A stretch of DNA of 64,000 nucleotides from Desulfobacteraceae bacterium. GTDB taxonomy: Bacteria; Desulfobacterota; Desulfobacteria; Desulfobacterales; RPRI01. Shown here piece by piece: positions 15,794 to 26,927 of this stretch. The translations under genes were made by a program, and so were the position numbers. The stretch is taken from assembly GCA_011391695.1 (NCBI GenBank), contig JAABQB010000002.1, forward strand, positions 1 through 64,000, given 5' to 3'. Positions within the stretch are counted from its first letter, which is position 1. Every line of letters starts with the position of its first letter. The notes beneath the pieces were generated by a model, which did not search any database, was not told where the DNA came from, and saw only the letters and a program-made list of their open reading frames with translations.

Positions 15794-16297
15794 TTGAATA
15801 AAATATTGACACATGAAGAGATCGTACGGGAGACAAGCCGTCTGAAGAAGGCCGGCAAACGCATAGTTTTTACCAATGGATGTTTTGACATTCTGCATGC
15901 CGGGCATGTCAGATACCTTGCAGCCGCACGGGCGGAAGGCGATGTCCTTATGGTGGGTCTGAATTCCGATAAATCTGTGAAATTGATAAAGGATCAAAAA
16001 AGGCCGATAGTTACCCAAACGCAAAGACTTGAAGTGCTCTCAGCTCTTTCAAGCGTTGATTTTGTCATTCTATTTGATGAGCCTGATCCATTGAAACTTA
16101 TTCAGGATGTCATGCCCGATATACTTGTTAAGGGTGGTGATTGGGCAGAAAAAGATATCATAGGAGCCGATTTTGTAAAGATAAACGGAGGAAAGGTTGT
16201 AAGTGTTTCTTTGGTGCCGGATATATCGACTTCTCTTATAATAAATAGGATAGTGGAATTGTACTGTCAGCCCGGTATAAAGAAGAGCTCCGAATAA
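15794..16297 (+). CDS. rfaE2: D-glycero-beta-D-manno-heptose 1-phosphate adenylyltransferase (RfaE domain II)
   Basis: This 167-residue single-domain nucleotidyltransferase has FTNGCFDILHAGHVRYL (HxGH motif) and ends with VSLVPDISTSLIINRIVE. It activates heptose 1-phosphate to ADP-heptose for LPS core synthesis, supporting a Gram-negative envelope. No ATG is available: an in-frame stop at 15788 leaves TTG at 15794 (or 15806) as the start. That TTG lies within a repeat unit. Confidence 0.92.
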   Translation: MNKILTHEEIVRETSRLKKAGKRIVFTNGCFDILHAGHVRYLAAARAEGDVLMVGLNSDKSVKLIKDQKRPIVTQTQRLEVLSALSSVDFVILFDEPDPLKLIQDVMPDILVKGGDWAEKDIIGADFVKINGGKVVSVSLVPDISTSLIINRIVELYCQPGIKKSSE

Positions 16298-16309
16298 AAA
16301 TGAATAGGG

Positions 16310-16440
16310 AGCCAATTGCAAAAGTTCTAAAGAGAGAAGAATTTGTTATTCCCACGAAAGTGGGAATCCAGTCTTTTCAATATATTGCAAAAATTTCTGG
16401 ATTCCCGTTTGCACGGGAATGACGACTTTTGAAATTGGCT
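16310..16440. mobile_element. MITE-like palindromic element with 6-bp target duplication
   Basis: The 131-bp element has 16-bp terminal inverted repeats (16310-16325 and 16425-16440, one mismatch) starting AGCCAATT. Inside, ATTCCCACGAAAGTGGGAAT and GATTCCCGTTTGCACGGGAAT arms also pair with each other. ATAGGG is directly repeated on both flanks (16304-16309 and 16441-16446), as expected of a target-site duplication. It has no coding capacity. It separates rfaE2 from pgeF and ends 16 bp before the pgeF start. Confidence 0.75.
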
Positions 16441-16456
16441 ATAGGGGTATTAAAGA

Positions 16457-17242
16457 TTGATTGTAACAAAATTTAACGGAATTTCATTTTTACAGTTTCC
16501 TAATCTTATCTCTTTTCCTGATTTAGGGCATGGTGTGTTTACGAGATGCGGCGGATTCAGCAAAGAGCCGTACATGAGTCTGAATGTTAGTCACGGCGTA
16601 GGAGATGATTCTGACGTTGTTGAACAGAACAGAGCGGTTGTTTCCATGTGCATGGATGGCAATGAACTGATTTTTGCCAGGCAGGTCCACGACACTGGTG
16701 TTGTGATTATTTCTGATAATGTTGCCAGTCAGCCTGGTATTCACACGGGAGATGCAATGATAAGCAATATTGGCAATAAGATGCTTGTCATTAAGGTCGC
16801 CGATTGCCAGTCCGTTCTCATTTATGATCCGGTAAAAAAAGTTGCTGCAAATGTTCATTCAGGGTGGAGGGGGAGCATTAAAAATGTAATAGGCTGCACT
16901 GTAATGAGCATGCAAGAGCGTTTTGATTGCAGCCCTTCAGATCTGGTGGCAGGTATAAGCCCTTCTCTCGGGCCTTGCTGTGCGGAGTTTATAAACTATG
17001 AAAGGGAAATACCTGAGAAGTTCCGGAAGTATAGGATAAATTCCGACCATTTCGATTTCTGGCGTATGAGTGAAGACCAGCTCCGGAGTGCGGGTCTCAG
17101 AGAATCAAATATTTATTCGAGCAAAATCTGCACAAAATGCAATACAACTTTGTTTTTTTCCTACCGTGGGGAAAAGAATACCGGAAGGTTTGCGTCTGTT
17201 ATTGGGCTAAAACGCAATTCATGGAAAGGACAAAAAAAATAA
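16457..17242 (+). CDS. pgeF: PgeF/YfiH laccase-domain protein
   Basis: The 261-residue product has the catalytic metal ligands in ARQVHDTGV, VADCQSVLIYD and NVHSGWRGS, and the C-terminal FFSYRGEKNTGRFASVIGL. The family acts on purine nucleosides (phosphorolysis and deamination) and in E. coli edits peptidoglycan precursors. The start is a TTG close behind the MITE-like element, with a GGGGTATT stretch as the only candidate ribosome site; the insertion may have changed its expression. Confidence 0.92.
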   Translation: MIVTKFNGISFLQFPNLISFPDLGHGVFTRCGGFSKEPYMSLNVSHGVGDDSDVVEQNRAVVSMCMDGNELIFARQVHDTGVVIISDNVASQPGIHTGDAMISNIGNKMLVIKVADCQSVLIYDPVKKVAANVHSGWRGSIKNVIGCTVMSMQERFDCSPSDLVAGISPSLGPCCAEFINYEREIPEKFRKYRINSDHFDFWRMSEDQLRSAGLRESNIYSSKICTKCNTTLFFSYRGEKNTGRFASVIGLKRNSWKGQKK

Positions 17243-17245
17243 GAC

Positions 17246-18100
17246 ATGAGTGGCAAGATACAGAAAACAAGGGGCGGGAGAATGAAGTACGAAGAAAGAC
17301 CAGACGGGCACATGTTTATTGAAAAAGCTCAGATTCTGTGGAACAAAAAACTAAGCCCCGCATATTTTAAAATGGGCTTAAAATGGAGTGGCTCTTTTCA
17401 TGATGCCAAACCAGGACAATTTGTCATGCTGCGAATTGGCGACCGGATTGCCCCGCTTTTGCGCCGTCCTTTTTCCATTTATAAAATAATGGAAGATAAG
17501 AAAGGAATGGAAATTCTCTACAGGGTGGTAGGAGAATGCACCGGCATGCTTTCAGAGATGAGGGAGGGTGAAAGCGTTGATATATTGGGGCCTCTTGGGA
17601 ACGGATTCCCTTTGCCAAAAAAAGGCGGAAAAGTTTTTATCGTTGCAGGAGGAATCGGAGTTGCTCCGCTGGTTTTTTTCTCTTCATATCTTGTCGGAAA
17701 AAAAAACTTTGCCGCATCAAATATAAAAGTGTTTCTTGGGGCACGATCGAAAGATGATCTTTTATGCAGAGATGATTTTTTAAGTCTCGGCATTCAAGTT
17801 GCAGTCACCACAGAAGATGGCAGTGAGGGTGAAACCTGTATGATAACAAGCCCGGTCGAGGCAGCCCTGAAAATAACACGGCCTGATATTATTTATGCAT
17901 GCGGGCCATCCGGGATGATGAAATGCCTTGCCGGCATGGCTGAAGATCACGGAGTGGCCTGTCAGATTTCCATGGAGTCTGTAATGGCCTGCGGTTTTGG
18001 TGCCTGTCTTGGCTGTGCGGTTGAATCGAAGCATGAGAATAAATATTTTCATGTATGTAAGGATGGACCTGTGTTTGACAGCCGCGATGTAAGATTCTGA
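17246..18100 (+). CDS. pyrK: PyrK-like dihydroorotate dehydrogenase electron-transfer subunit
   Basis: The protein has a flavin-binding domain (RPFSIYKI), an NAD-binding region (VFIVAGGIGVAPLVFF) and a C-terminal [2Fe-2S] site with CGFGACLGC and a later Cys. This is the PyrK family, which lets PyrD use NAD. No pyrD lies next to it, so its partner could also be another oxidoreductase. The ATG at 17246 opens 3 bp after pgeF; an ATG at 17282, preceded by GGGGCGGGAGA, is an alternative. Confidence 0.87.
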   Translation: MSGKIQKTRGGRMKYEERPDGHMFIEKAQILWNKKLSPAYFKMGLKWSGSFHDAKPGQFVMLRIGDRIAPLLRRPFSIYKIMEDKKGMEILYRVVGECTGMLSEMREGESVDILGPLGNGFPLPKKGGKVFIVAGGIGVAPLVFFSSYLVGKKNFAASNIKVFLGARSKDDLLCRDDFLSLGIQVAVTTEDGSEGETCMITSPVEAALKITRPDIIYACGPSGMMKCLAGMAEDHGVACQISMESVMACGFGACLGCAVESKHENKYFHVCKDGPVFDSRDVRF

Positions 18101-18101
18101 A

Positions 18102-18260
18102 GAGTGAAAAGTGAAAAGTAAAAAGAAGGGTTTGAGGATTCAAGGATTCGAGGGTTCAAGGGAAAAGCTAAGAAAGGCACAAAGGCGAGAGGCGCGAGGC
18201 GAGAGGCGTGGATAGAACAACAAACGACGAATCACGAACCACGATAAACGAAGGACGAAT
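18102..18260 (+). repeat. Heptad repeat tract H (pyrK to selD)
   Basis: Following the pyrK stop: GTGAAAAGTGAAAAG, then GGATTCAAGGATTCGAGGG, then GCGAGAGGCGCGAGGCGAG, then ACGAATCACGAACCACGAT and AAACGAAGGACGAAT, which ends directly at the selD ATG. The last units provide its AAGGA ribosome site. Confidence 0.8.
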
Positions 18261-19310
18261 ATGGAAAAAGATAATAAAACATATTTGACTGAAAAAGTCC
18301 GGGCATCCGGGTGAGCTGCCAAGATAGGTCCAGGGGTCCTGGATAATATATTAAAGAGCCTGCCTGTGAGAGCGCATCCCGATCTCCTTGTTGGAATGGA
18401 AACATCTGATGATGCCGGAGTATTCAGGCTTGATTCCGAAACTGCGCTGGTGCAGACGCTCGATTTTTTCACACCCATTGTTGATTCTCCATATGAATTT
18501 GGCCTTATAGCCGCAGCCAATTCTCTGAGCGATATATATGCAATGGGAGGCAGGCCGGTAACGGCCATGAATATCGTCTGTTTCCCTGTCGGAGAGCTAT
18601 CCGAAGATATTCTGAAAGAGACCCTTGCCGGCGGTCTTGAAAAAATATATGAAGCCGGCGCAGTTCTGGTGGGTGGCCACAGTGTCGATGACAAAGAGTT
18701 CAAGTACGGACTGTCTGTCACGGGTATAGTTCATCCGGACAGGATACTTACAAACAGGAATGCAAAGACAGACGACAGGCTGATCTTGACCAAGCCCATA
18801 GGCACCGGAATAATAGCAACTGCGATTAAGAGGAAAATAGCCGATGGAGAGGCTGTAAAGACGCTTATTGAAGTCACGACAACTCTTAACAGAAGGGCTG
18901 CTGAAATAATGGAAAGGTTTCGGCCAAACGCCTGCACCGATGTGACAGGATTCGGTCTTGCCGGGCATTTGCTCGAAATGGCTAAAGGAAGCAGGAAGAA
19001 AATTGTTATCCATACTGATATGATTCCTTTCATTAAAAAAGCCAGAGAATATGCCCTCATGGGACTGATTCCTGGCGGAAGCTATAATACAAAAAATTAT
19101 TGCATTAAAAATATAAGTATCGGTGCATCGGTAAAACAGGTTGTTATTGATATGCTTTTTGACCCCCAGACTTCAGGAGGTCTTGTAATATCTCTTCCAG
19201 AAAAAAAAGCAAAAGAATGCCTGAAAGCAATGCAGAATGAAGGTCTGTTTTGTGCAATAATAGGCGAAGTTTCAGAGGAGAGCATAGACGGGCATCTGGT
19301 TGTCAATTGA
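18261..19310 (+). CDS. selD: Selenide, water dikinase SelD, a selenoprotein
   Basis: SelD makes selenophosphate from selenide and ATP, the selenium donor for Sec-tRNA. The frame runs from the ATG at 18261 to the stop at 19310 with one in-frame TGA at 18312-18314. The context ASG-U-AAKIG is exactly the SelD active site, where Cys or Sec is followed three residues later by the catalytic Lys (here 18 and 21). A conventional gene call would begin only at a GTG at 18366 and lose the active site. The rest matches SelD: SDDAGVF, DFFTPIVDSPYEFGLIAAAN, TDVTGFGLAGHL, FDPQTSGGL. The frame shows no other defect, so this is not a pseudogene. Confidence 0.95.
18312..18343 (+). promoter_or_regulatory. Sec codon and candidate bacterial SECIS hairpin
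   Basis: The UGA at 18312-18314 is followed by a hairpin TCCAG (18329-18333), loop GGGTC, CTGGA (18339-18343). A GGU in the apical loop about 20 nt after the UGA fits the bacterial SECIS, which SelB reads. The SelA, SelB and selC genes are not in the window. Confidence 0.75.
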
Positions 19311-19466
19311 TTTTATCTATCGTATCATTTTGATTTTACAGGTATTTTATTATACGCAAGATGGATGTAATTTTGCGTTGACTTGATTGTAATCATATGT
19401 TAGAGGGCAGAAGCTTTATTGAGGTCTGCATTGACTCTATTGCAAAAATAGAAAGCGTTCTTTAAT

Positions 19467-19706
19467 GTGAAAAGAGAAACAAGACGTTATATACGGGAGC
19501 TGGCTTATTATAGCAGTCTTGGCCTCCAAGTAGCGCTTTCTATATTTATCGGGCTTGCTATTGGCGTGTATCTTGACAGGCGATTTGAATTTTATCCCTG
19601 GCTTACGCTTGCCTTTCTTGGACTTGGTATTGCAGCAGGATTCAGGAACATCTGGCTTGTGATAAGAAAGAGTGAGAAGTCTCCGCAGGAAAGAGATATA
19701 AAATGA
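19467..19706 (+). CDS. AtpZ/AtpI-family F0 accessory protein
   Basis: A 79-residue protein with two predicted membrane helices (about 18-40 and 46-66), a short loop with YLDRRFEFYPW, and the family-like GIAAGFRN. Such 'gene 1' proteins precede F0 genes and assist assembly or Mg2+/Ca2+ transport. The start is GTG. The stop overlaps the next gene by 4 bp. Confidence 0.82.
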   Translation: MKRETRRYIRELAYYSSLGLQVALSIFIGLAIGVYLDRRFEFYPWLTLAFLGLGIAAGFRNIWLVIRKSEKSPQERDIK

Positions 19707-20089
19707 AAATACAGCAGCGCATCCTGAAATTTGTAACCCTGACCAACTGGATACTTTTTTGTGTTGCTAGTATGGGAGGACTTATTATTGCTTCTCCAAA
19801 GTTTGCATTGGGAATAGTATTTGGAGGACTTATAGTTACTATAAATTTTCATCTGCTTTACAGGACGCTTAAAATAGCGCTCACACCTCCACAGCTTGCT
19901 TCCCACAATGTTGTGCTGGCCAAGTATTATGCCCGTTTCATGGTGAGCGGGTTTATTATATTTATATTGATATCTGGGCATTATGTTCACCCACTCGGTC
20001 TTTTTGTCGGGCTCTCCGTCGTGGTTGCAAGCATAATAATAGCAACCATGCTTGAACTTACAAAACTTATTTTCAAGGAGGCAATATAA
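19703..20089 (+). CDS. ATP synthase subunit I-like protein
   Basis: The 128-residue protein has four predicted membrane helices and lies between the AtpZ-like gene and atpB, where AtpI homologues are expected. AtpI is a c-ring assembly factor. Sequence identity in this family is low, so position carries much of the call. A strong AAGGAGG site for atpB lies in its last codons. Confidence 0.75.
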   Translation: MKIQQRILKFVTLTNWILFCVASMGGLIIASPKFALGIVFGGLIVTINFHLLYRTLKIALTPPQLASHNVVLAKYYARFMVSGFIIFILISGHYVHPLGLFVGLSVVVASIIIATMLELTKLIFKEAI

Positions 20090-20090
20090 G

Positions 20091-20780
20091 GTGGCACATC
20101 CCTATCTGTTTTTTGTGAAGCTTTTTGAGGCTATTGGCTTGGAACATTTTGCCCATGCATATCCGCATGTTATTTATTCATGGGTGGTCATGATTCTTCT
20201 CTTAACTTTAGGTGCAATTGGTGCAAAGAGTATCAGCCTGATTCCCGGAAAAGCGCAGAATGTATTTGAAGTTATAGTATCAGGAATTGAAAATTTTATG
20301 GTTGATGTTTCAGGCGAAGAGGGCCGATGGCTTTTTCCTCTTGTTGCAACAATATTCATTTATATTTTCACCTGTAATCTTATCGGTCTTGTTCCAGGAT
20401 TTTTCCCCCCAACCGCCAGTCTGAATACAACAGCTTCATGCGCACTGACTGTTGTAATTTTTACCCATATAATAGGATTAAAATATCACGGCATAAAATA
20501 TATTAAACATTTTCTTGGGCCTGTTTGGTGGATGATCCCAATTGTGTTTCCGATTGAAGTTATCGGTCATCTTGCACGGATTCTCTCCCTCTCATTCCGT
20601 CTTTTTGGAAACATGATGGGTCATGAGCTGGTGCTTGGTATTCTTTTCGTTCTCGCCGGACTCTTTTTTGCTCCTCTGCCAATAATGGCTCTTGGTATTT
20701 TTGTTGCCCTTGTTCAGGCGTTTGTTTTCTTTTTGCTGTCAATCATGTATTTTACCGGCGCTATGGAACACGCCCACTGA
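20091..20780 (+). CDS. atpB: ATP synthase F0 subunit a
   Basis: The 229-residue integral membrane protein carries the conserved fourth/fifth-helix region LSLSFRLFGNMMGHELVLG, whose Arg faces the c-ring, and the C-terminal ALVQAFVFFLLSIMYFTGA. It forms the ion half-channels. I start at the GTG at 20091 (VAHPYLFFVK), 8 bp after AAGGAGG. An upstream in-frame ATG lies within the previous gene and has no site. Confidence 0.95.
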   Translation: MAHPYLFFVKLFEAIGLEHFAHAYPHVIYSWVVMILLLTLGAIGAKSISLIPGKAQNVFEVIVSGIENFMVDVSGEEGRWLFPLVATIFIYIFTCNLIGLVPGFFPPTASLNTTASCALTVVIFTHIIGLKYHGIKYIKHFLGPVWWMIPIVFPIEVIGHLARILSLSFRLFGNMMGHELVLGILFVLAGLFFAPLPIMALGIFVALVQAFVFFLLSIMYFTGAMEHAH

Positions 20781-20862
20781 TTTGCCGGAAAAAAATAGGT
20801 TTGTTTTTATGGGATAAAGGAAGAAGCAAAGTCAATCATTATCAAAAGGAGGAAGGTAAAGT

Positions 20863-21144
20863 ATGGAAGCTGAAGCATTAAAATTTTTCATCGCATGTGT
20901 CACGGCAGCCGGTTTTGGAATTGCAGTTGCAGCCTTTGGTTGCGGTATTGCCCAGGGTCTTGGCCTTAAGGCCGCTGTAGAGGGTATTGCAAGAAACCCG
21001 GAATCATCAGGGAAAGTTACTGTTACAATGCTGATCGGTCTTGCCATGATCGAGTCTCTTTGTATTTATGCACTTGTAATTGCCCTGATTCTTATTTATG
21101 CGCATCCTCAGGCAGCTGCTATAGCAAAGCTTTTCGGTCATTAA
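20863..21144 (+). CDS. atpE: ATP synthase F0 subunit c
   Basis: A 93-residue hairpin protein with two helices and the loop ARNPESSGK. The ion-binding Glu is residue 64 in GLAMIESLCIY. Gln31, Glu64, Ser65 and Tyr69 have the same spacing as the Na+ ligands Gln32, Glu65, Ser66 and Tyr70 of the Ilyobacter c-ring; the Thr67 position is Leu. Subunits b, delta and F1 do not follow: the next gene is uvrA on the other strand. Confidence 0.96.
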   Translation: MEAEALKFFIACVTAAGFGIAVAAFGCGIAQGLGLKAAVEGIARNPESSGKVTVTMLIGLAMIESLCIYALVIALILIYAHPQAAAIAKLFGH

Positions 21145-25586: not shown

Positions 25587-26927
25587 ATGGAAGCTATTTG
25601 GAACAATGTAAAATCAGCTATCAGGGAAAGTATTCCAGGGCATAGTTACAAAATGTGGATAGAACCTCTCGAGTTCAACAGAACTGCGGATGGCGTTCTA
25701 GTGCTGTCAGTTCCAAACAGCTTTTCCAAAAAAAGAGTTCAGGACCACTATGGAAGTTTGATAGATTCGGAATTAAAAAAGATTGCCGGCGATCACTGCA
25801 GTTATGTTATCGAGATTTGCGGAGAAAAAAAATCGGGGCGGAACAAGCCGTATAATAATCATCAACTGCCTCTTCAGAGTGCAAACATTCAACCACATTA
25901 CGGGCGATTTTTAAGAAAAGACTTCACTTTCGACCAGTTTGTTGTCGGAGGAAATAACGAATTCGCCTTCACAGCGTCTCTGTCTCTAGCTTCAAGAAAC
26001 AACTCTCAGCAAAGCTGTCTGTTTTTATTGTCAAAGACCGGAATGGGCAAAAGCCATCTTGCCCAGGCTGTCGGACACCATGTTATTTCTCAATCTCCTT
26101 CAGAACGCGTATATTATATAACTGCTGAAGATTTCAGCAATGAGATGGTTCAGGCTATTCGTAATGATTCATTCGACAAGTTCAAGAGCAAATACAGAAA
26201 AGAATGTGATGTTCTGTTGCTGGAAGATGTTCATTATCTGGGAGGAAAAGAGCGCACACAGATTGAACTTGCTCTCACCCTCGATAATTTAATGGATTCC
26301 GATAAAAAGATAATTTTTTCAAGCTGCTATCTCCCGGGTGATATACCCAAATTACATGATAAATTAAAATCACGTTTTTCATACGGGATAATTTCCGCTA
26401 TTGAACCTCCCAATTTCAGGACAAGAGTAAGAATACTTCAAAGGAAAGCGCTTTTAAACGGATTTCAGGTTCCGGAGGAAATAGTTCATTATCTTGCGAG
26501 CGAACTGAATGAAGATGTAAGGCAGCTTGAAAGCGGACTTATTGGAATTACCGCCAAGTCATCTCTCATGGGTATTCCGATCGATATTGATCTTGCTGAA
26601 AGCGTCGTAAAAAACATCGTTTTGCATAAAAAAAGCATTACGATTGATGTTATAAAGAAACTGGTTTGCAAGCATTTTAACATTACAATAGCAGACATTG
26701 TTTCAATTTCCAGAAAGCAGACATTTACCCGTCCGAGACAGATTGCGATTTATCTGTCACGCCGGTACACTGATTCGCCGCTGCAGACAATCGGAAAGAG
26801 TTTTAACCGATATCATGCCACAGCTCTTCATTCCATAGGCATTGTTGAGAGGGGTATTAAAGAGAACAGTTCCTTAAGGAAGCAGGTTGATTATTTTTCC
26901 CAGAAACTTGAATCCGGCAAGTTTTAA
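25587..26927 (+). CDS. dnaA: Chromosomal replication initiator DnaA, divergent
   Basis: The 446-residue protein has all DnaA domains: an N-terminal domain (IWNNVKSAIRESIPGHSYKMW), an AAA+ core with Walker A SKTGMGKSH, Walker B LLLEDVHYL, arginine finger KLKSRFSYG, and a C-terminal helix-turn-helix with RPRQIAIYLSRRYT. The DNA-contact motif normally reading GRDHTTVLHA is NRYHATALHS: the Asp is Tyr and the first Thr is Ala. Walker B has Glu-Asp instead of Asp-Asp. It is followed by glcD, not dnaN. It could be the main initiator of a divergent lineage or a second DnaA. Confidence 0.9.
   Translation: MEAIWNNVKSAIRESIPGHSYKMWIEPLEFNRTADGVLVLSVPNSFSKKRVQDHYGSLIDSELKKIAGDHCSYVIEICGEKKSGRNKPYNNHQLPLQSANIQPHYGRFLRKDFTFDQFVVGGNNEFAFTASLSLASRNNSQQSCLFLLSKTGMGKSHLAQAVGHHVISQSPSERVYYITAEDFSNEMVQAIRNDSFDKFKSKYRKECDVLLLEDVHYLGGKERTQIELALTLDNLMDSDKKIIFSSCYLPGDIPKLHDKLKSRFSYGIISAIEPPNFRTRVRILQRKALLNGFQVPEEIVHYLASELNEDVRQLESGLIGITAKSSLMGIPIDIDLAESVVKNIVLHKKSITIDVIKKLVCKHFNITIADIVSISRKQTFTRPRQIAIYLSRRYTDSPLQTIGKSFNRYHATALHSIGIVERGIKENSSLRKQVDYFSQKLESGKF

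Follow-up and report, generated by a model that had tools for sequence, protein, structure and literature searches.

An in-frame UGA codon and a predicted bacterial SECIS element in the selD gene of a Desulfobacteraceae bacterium

Selenide, water dikinase (SelD) uses ATP to convert selenide to selenophosphate, and SelA uses this product for the synthesis of Sec-tRNA(Sec) (PMC1794560, PMC13188914). SelD forms the second largest selenoprotein family of prokaryotes (PMC13188914). Versions carrying selenocysteine (Sec) were listed in 2006 for Syntrophobacter, Geobacter, Desulfovibrio and others, in work that already noted a possible self-sustainment of the enzyme (PMC1794560), and a further description, of marine Deltaproteobacteria whose SelD contains Sec, followed in 2021 (PMC8318568). 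The selenoprotein SelDs of Deltaproteobacteria (PMC1794560, Table 3) likewise have a Sec active site, a bacterial SECIS element and an FdhA selenoprotein alongside, and differ from the SelD described here in species only. The SelD of Aquifex aeolicus (PDB 2yye, 2zod, 2zau) comes from a distant phylum; its active-site segment, VRSSG-C/U-AAKVGPG (VRSSGCAAKVGPG in 2yye), is nearly identical to the VRASG-U-AAKIGPG found here, and the two proteins align over their full length (E 7e-67). No mechanistic difference between them was seen. The natural A. aeolicus enzyme has Sec at the active site, the crystallised protein being a Cys replacement. Escherichia coli SelD (PDB 3u0o, Cys17 type; GAGCGCKISP) belongs to the same family and shares the active-site position, but has Cys rather than Sec, CGCK rather than UAAK, and no need of a SECIS.

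The stretch of DNA analysed here (the window, 64,000 nucleotides) carries a selD gene with the following features.

18261 to 19310, + strand: selD, selenide, water dikinase, 349 aa with predicted Sec at residue 18 (from TIGR00476, structure alignment and sequence)
18312 to 18314, + strand: active-site Cys/Sec codon of SelD, a UGA predicted to encode selenocysteine (TGA in homologues; alignment places it on the catalytic Cys/Sec of PDB 2yye/3u0o)
18328 to 18344, + strand: predicted upper stem-loop of a bacterial SECIS (from fold, pair counts, synonymous-codon constraint and bSECIS rules)

The gene is a single open frame save for one internal TGA, at codon 18, and the terminal TGA stop, and the internal codon is followed by AAKIG, as the original prediction had it (the product reads ...VRASG-U-AAKIGPGVLDNILKSL...). 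The ATG at 18261 lies a few bases 3' of an AAGGA motif resembling a ribosome-binding site (18251–18255), and alignment with close relatives runs from residue 1. The product exceeds the curated cut-off of the NCBIfam SelD equivalog TIGR00476 (380 bits against 125, E 7e-114) and that of NF002098 (342 bits against 299). The A. aeolicus and E. coli structures align over the whole protein, with U18-A-A-K21 falling on C-A-A-K of 2yye and C-G-C-K of 3u0o. U18 therefore occupies the position of the active-site Cys in both, and the protein shows the SelD pattern of an N-terminal active-site Cys/Sec with a conserved Lys after it. A SelD with Sec at this position, as had been proposed, is borne out by the TIGR00476 match, by these alignments and by the UGA of homologues described below. 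A mechanical ORF call, on the other hand, starts at the GTG at 18366 and gives a product of 314 aa. This is exactly the 105 bp delay that had been predicted for a usual gene call; the statement does not extend to NCBI annotation, in which comparable TGA-containing selD genes are called at full length with the TGA spanned, for example the Terrisporobacter CDS at 133–1182 of locus L181. Without read-through of UGA 18312 the selD product loses its active site.

The TGA is strongly conserved. It occupies the active-site codon in 82 of 82 aligned SelD loci, a set made up of the nearest 80 loci in GTDB genomes, the window and one further locus of the same genus; two additional same-genus loci, on the other strand, likewise have it. 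A census sampled 147 genomes of the same class and found SelD in 138, and in 137 of these the SelD match spans exactly one TGA. The single exception is a contig-edge fragment covering only model positions 97–310, without the active-site codon, and no Cys-type SelD was found among the 138. SelDs from plasmid records are divided: three from Clostridia have TGA, whereas Cys, with GCK or ACK after it, occurs in the other eleven (Pseudomonadota, Actinomycetota, Bacteroidota). In the window gene the in-frame UGA thus aligns with a residue that is Cys or Sec in homologues, one criterion for a bacterial selenoprotein. The recurrence of the codon across homologues and genomes excludes a sequencing error or a pseudogene. 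A true stop at this codon, with a shorter protein made from GTG 18366, would agree with the mechanical ORF call and with the crystallisation of an N-terminally truncated A. aeolicus SelD (2zau), but this reading is refuted by the conservation of the TGA together with a coding frame kept on both sides of it, and we regard it as extremely improbable. The synonymous sites directly after the TGA, the most constrained of the gene, also speak against it.

These sites coincide with the predicted SECIS. Folding of 18312–18352 (the original prediction had proposed folding 18312–18345) gives one hairpin of 7 bp (18328–18334 with 18338–18344, -9.8 kcal/mol) with a GGU loop at 18335–18337, 20 nt separating the UGA from the loop. 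Published bSECIS rules call for a loop of 3–9 nt, a stem of 4–16 bp, G in the first two loop positions, a spacing of 16–37 nt and an MFE of at most -7.5 kcal/mol (PMC13188914), and the hairpin satisfies all of them. Compared with shuffled sequences its energy is unexceptional (z of -0.36 for 41 nt and -2.06 for the 25-nt core); since folding energy alone is no proof of a SECIS, comparative evidence was used. Across 79 distinct homologues, 88.8% of cells keep the stem paired, whereas slid controls reach 55% at most; changes on both sides of the stem occur in 28 cells, against 7.5 in shuffles. The covariation score of the stem is 0.213 (0.150 in shuffles). Coding constraint may explain part of this conservation, so the choice of synonymous codons was tested. 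Among 274 usable codon positions, codons 23, 24, 26 and 25 rank first to fourth, in that order, in their departure from gene-wide synonymous usage, and codon 27 ranks seventh; the Pro24 codon is CCA or CCG in 81 of 82 loci and the Gly25 codon is GGG in 56 of 66. The most biased codons being those of the hairpin, the RNA appears to be under selection beyond that on the protein. Cys-type SelDs from plasmid records carry CGCK or CACK from the site on, and by eye none of them showed the GGU hairpin sequence. Fold, rules, pairing and codon constraint together uphold the claim of a GGU-loop hairpin at the expected distance.

The genome (2.8 Mb in 116 contigs, 98% complete) contains further genes of the Sec pathway.

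C37, 2186 to 3556: selA, 628 bits, above the curated cut-off
C39, 76517 to 78409: selB, 386 bits, above the curated cut-off, on the window's own contig
C55, 1995 to 3998: fdhA (formate dehydrogenase) with one TGA, 899 bits

The selB gene sits 12.5 kb past the window end. The TGA of fdhA lies at an ARLU-HSSTVAG motif, and 18 nt downstream is a SECIS-like hairpin whose loop reads GGUCU. Another formate dehydrogenase alpha gene, a fragment (L145, C37:36168–36776), has TGA at the active-site position and reaches the end of C37. Besides selD, then, the C55 fdhA and the C37 fragment represent selenoprotein genes in this genome. It had been predicted that the organism must have selA, selB and selC: the first two are present, so that the Sec machinery is not wholly absent, while selC was not found in the draft assembly. 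A scan for in-frame TGA in the rest of the 102-kb contig, with coding bias required on both sides, gave 13 candidates, and on inspection by eye read-through falls inside a recognisable gene for selD alone. This bears on the possibility that the codon stands for a different amino acid (Trp, for instance) or is read through by a near-cognate tRNA, with no Sec machinery involved. The missing selC would suit it, but selD itself ends with TGA, and normal use of TGA as a stop, together with intact selA and selB, refutes it. All homologues have Cys or Sec at the site and a SECIS is present, leaving this reading with practically no probability.

The best matches in the assembly to RF01852, the tRNA-Sec model, are below the cut-off and correspond to tRNA-Ser and other tRNAs; neither the selC of a relative nor the gene that flanks selC on its far side in genome G004 has a match in the genome, and a search with the conserved T-arm pattern returned only ordinary tRNA-like sites and no selC. 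Within the window, Rfam at the gathering threshold and ARAGORN report no RNA gene. Five genomes of the same genus have an intact tRNA-Sec with UCA anticodon, and in the same-genus relatives that were read selC adjoins a pepT-like peptidase gene. In a sixth same-genus genome (G007) the pepT contig begins inside selC, and in G008 a contig begins between selC and pepT. Contig breaks at or near selC were observed in several MAGs of the genus (L060 and L061, at G008:C240 and G007:C48; L042, at G004:C122). Since pepT is also missing from the genome of the window, an assembly or binning gap is likely, and the selC locus was probably lost from the assembly in this way; the living organism is predicted to possess the gene. 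Were selC instead lost by the organism itself, the Sec trait would be decaying and selD not fully translated. The 98% completeness of an assembly without selC speaks for such a loss, but the intact selC beside pepT in five relatives, the contig edges in G007 and G008 and the absence of pepT here speak against it. With selA, selB, selD and fdhA all intact and the SECIS under constraint, an assembly gap is the more likely explanation, and loss of selC is very improbable. Because contigs can end in this way, a draft assembly can easily fail to show selC, and calls of an incomplete Sec trait may be artefacts.

Around selD, the window has the order pgeF-like, pyrK-like, selD, atpB, atpE (ATP synthase F0) at 15794–21144; names other than selD were assigned by reading translations. 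The same order is kept in many Desulfobacterales loci (L052, L053, L054, L059, L067, L069, L070, L072, L074 and others). The intergenic region 5' of selD (18101–18260) contains word-like short repeats (GGATTCAAGGATTCGAGGGTTCAAGGG; AATCACGAACCACGA), parts of which are found again in a few intergenic places elsewhere in the window; in L042 the region separating pepT from selC includes a similar stretch. An ORF at 25587–26927 reads, from its translation, like a putative replication initiator DnaA. Two SelD lineages, about 50% identical, occur within the one genus: those of G002, G006 and G007 (L024, L025, L026) cluster with SelDs from other families of the order rather than with that of the window. 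Horizontal-transfer replacement or differential loss of paralogues are possible explanations. Some genomes of the order have two UGA-type SelDs.

Taken from sequence comparison, the window gene is almost certainly a selD of the ordinary selenoprotein type, from a Desulfobacterales-like (Thermodesulfobacteriota) bacterium that decodes its UGA as Sec. The GGU-loop hairpin would be recognised by SelB bound to Sec-tRNA(Sec), and UGA 18312 would then be decoded with actual insertion of Sec. The residue would correspond to Cys17 of E. coli SelD, within the glycine-rich segment near the N-terminus; a catalytic role is predicted for Sec18, which may help selenium transfer during the synthesis of selenophosphate from selenide and ATP. 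Selenophosphate would feed SelA, converting Ser-tRNA(Sec) to Sec-tRNA(Sec), and SelD would in this way provide the selenium needed to make both SelD itself and other selenoproteins, FdhA among them. As SelA charges tRNA-Sec with the product of SelD, SelD would depend on its own product.

The Sec-type SelD found here is ordinary, one more case of a long-known pattern that is common to all the relatives sampled. Because no Cys-type SelD was found in the class, selenophosphate synthesis there may conceivably depend wholly on pre-existing Sec-tRNA, as an obligate self-sustaining loop, although we consider this rather doubtful. If true, the loop would have to be carried over between generations, and long selenium starvation could lead to irreversible collapse, or the loop could act as a switch for selenium status. 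With UGA in 137 genomes and Cys in none, the class census makes it easy to ask how a selenium pathway dependent on itself would restart once selenium had been lost.
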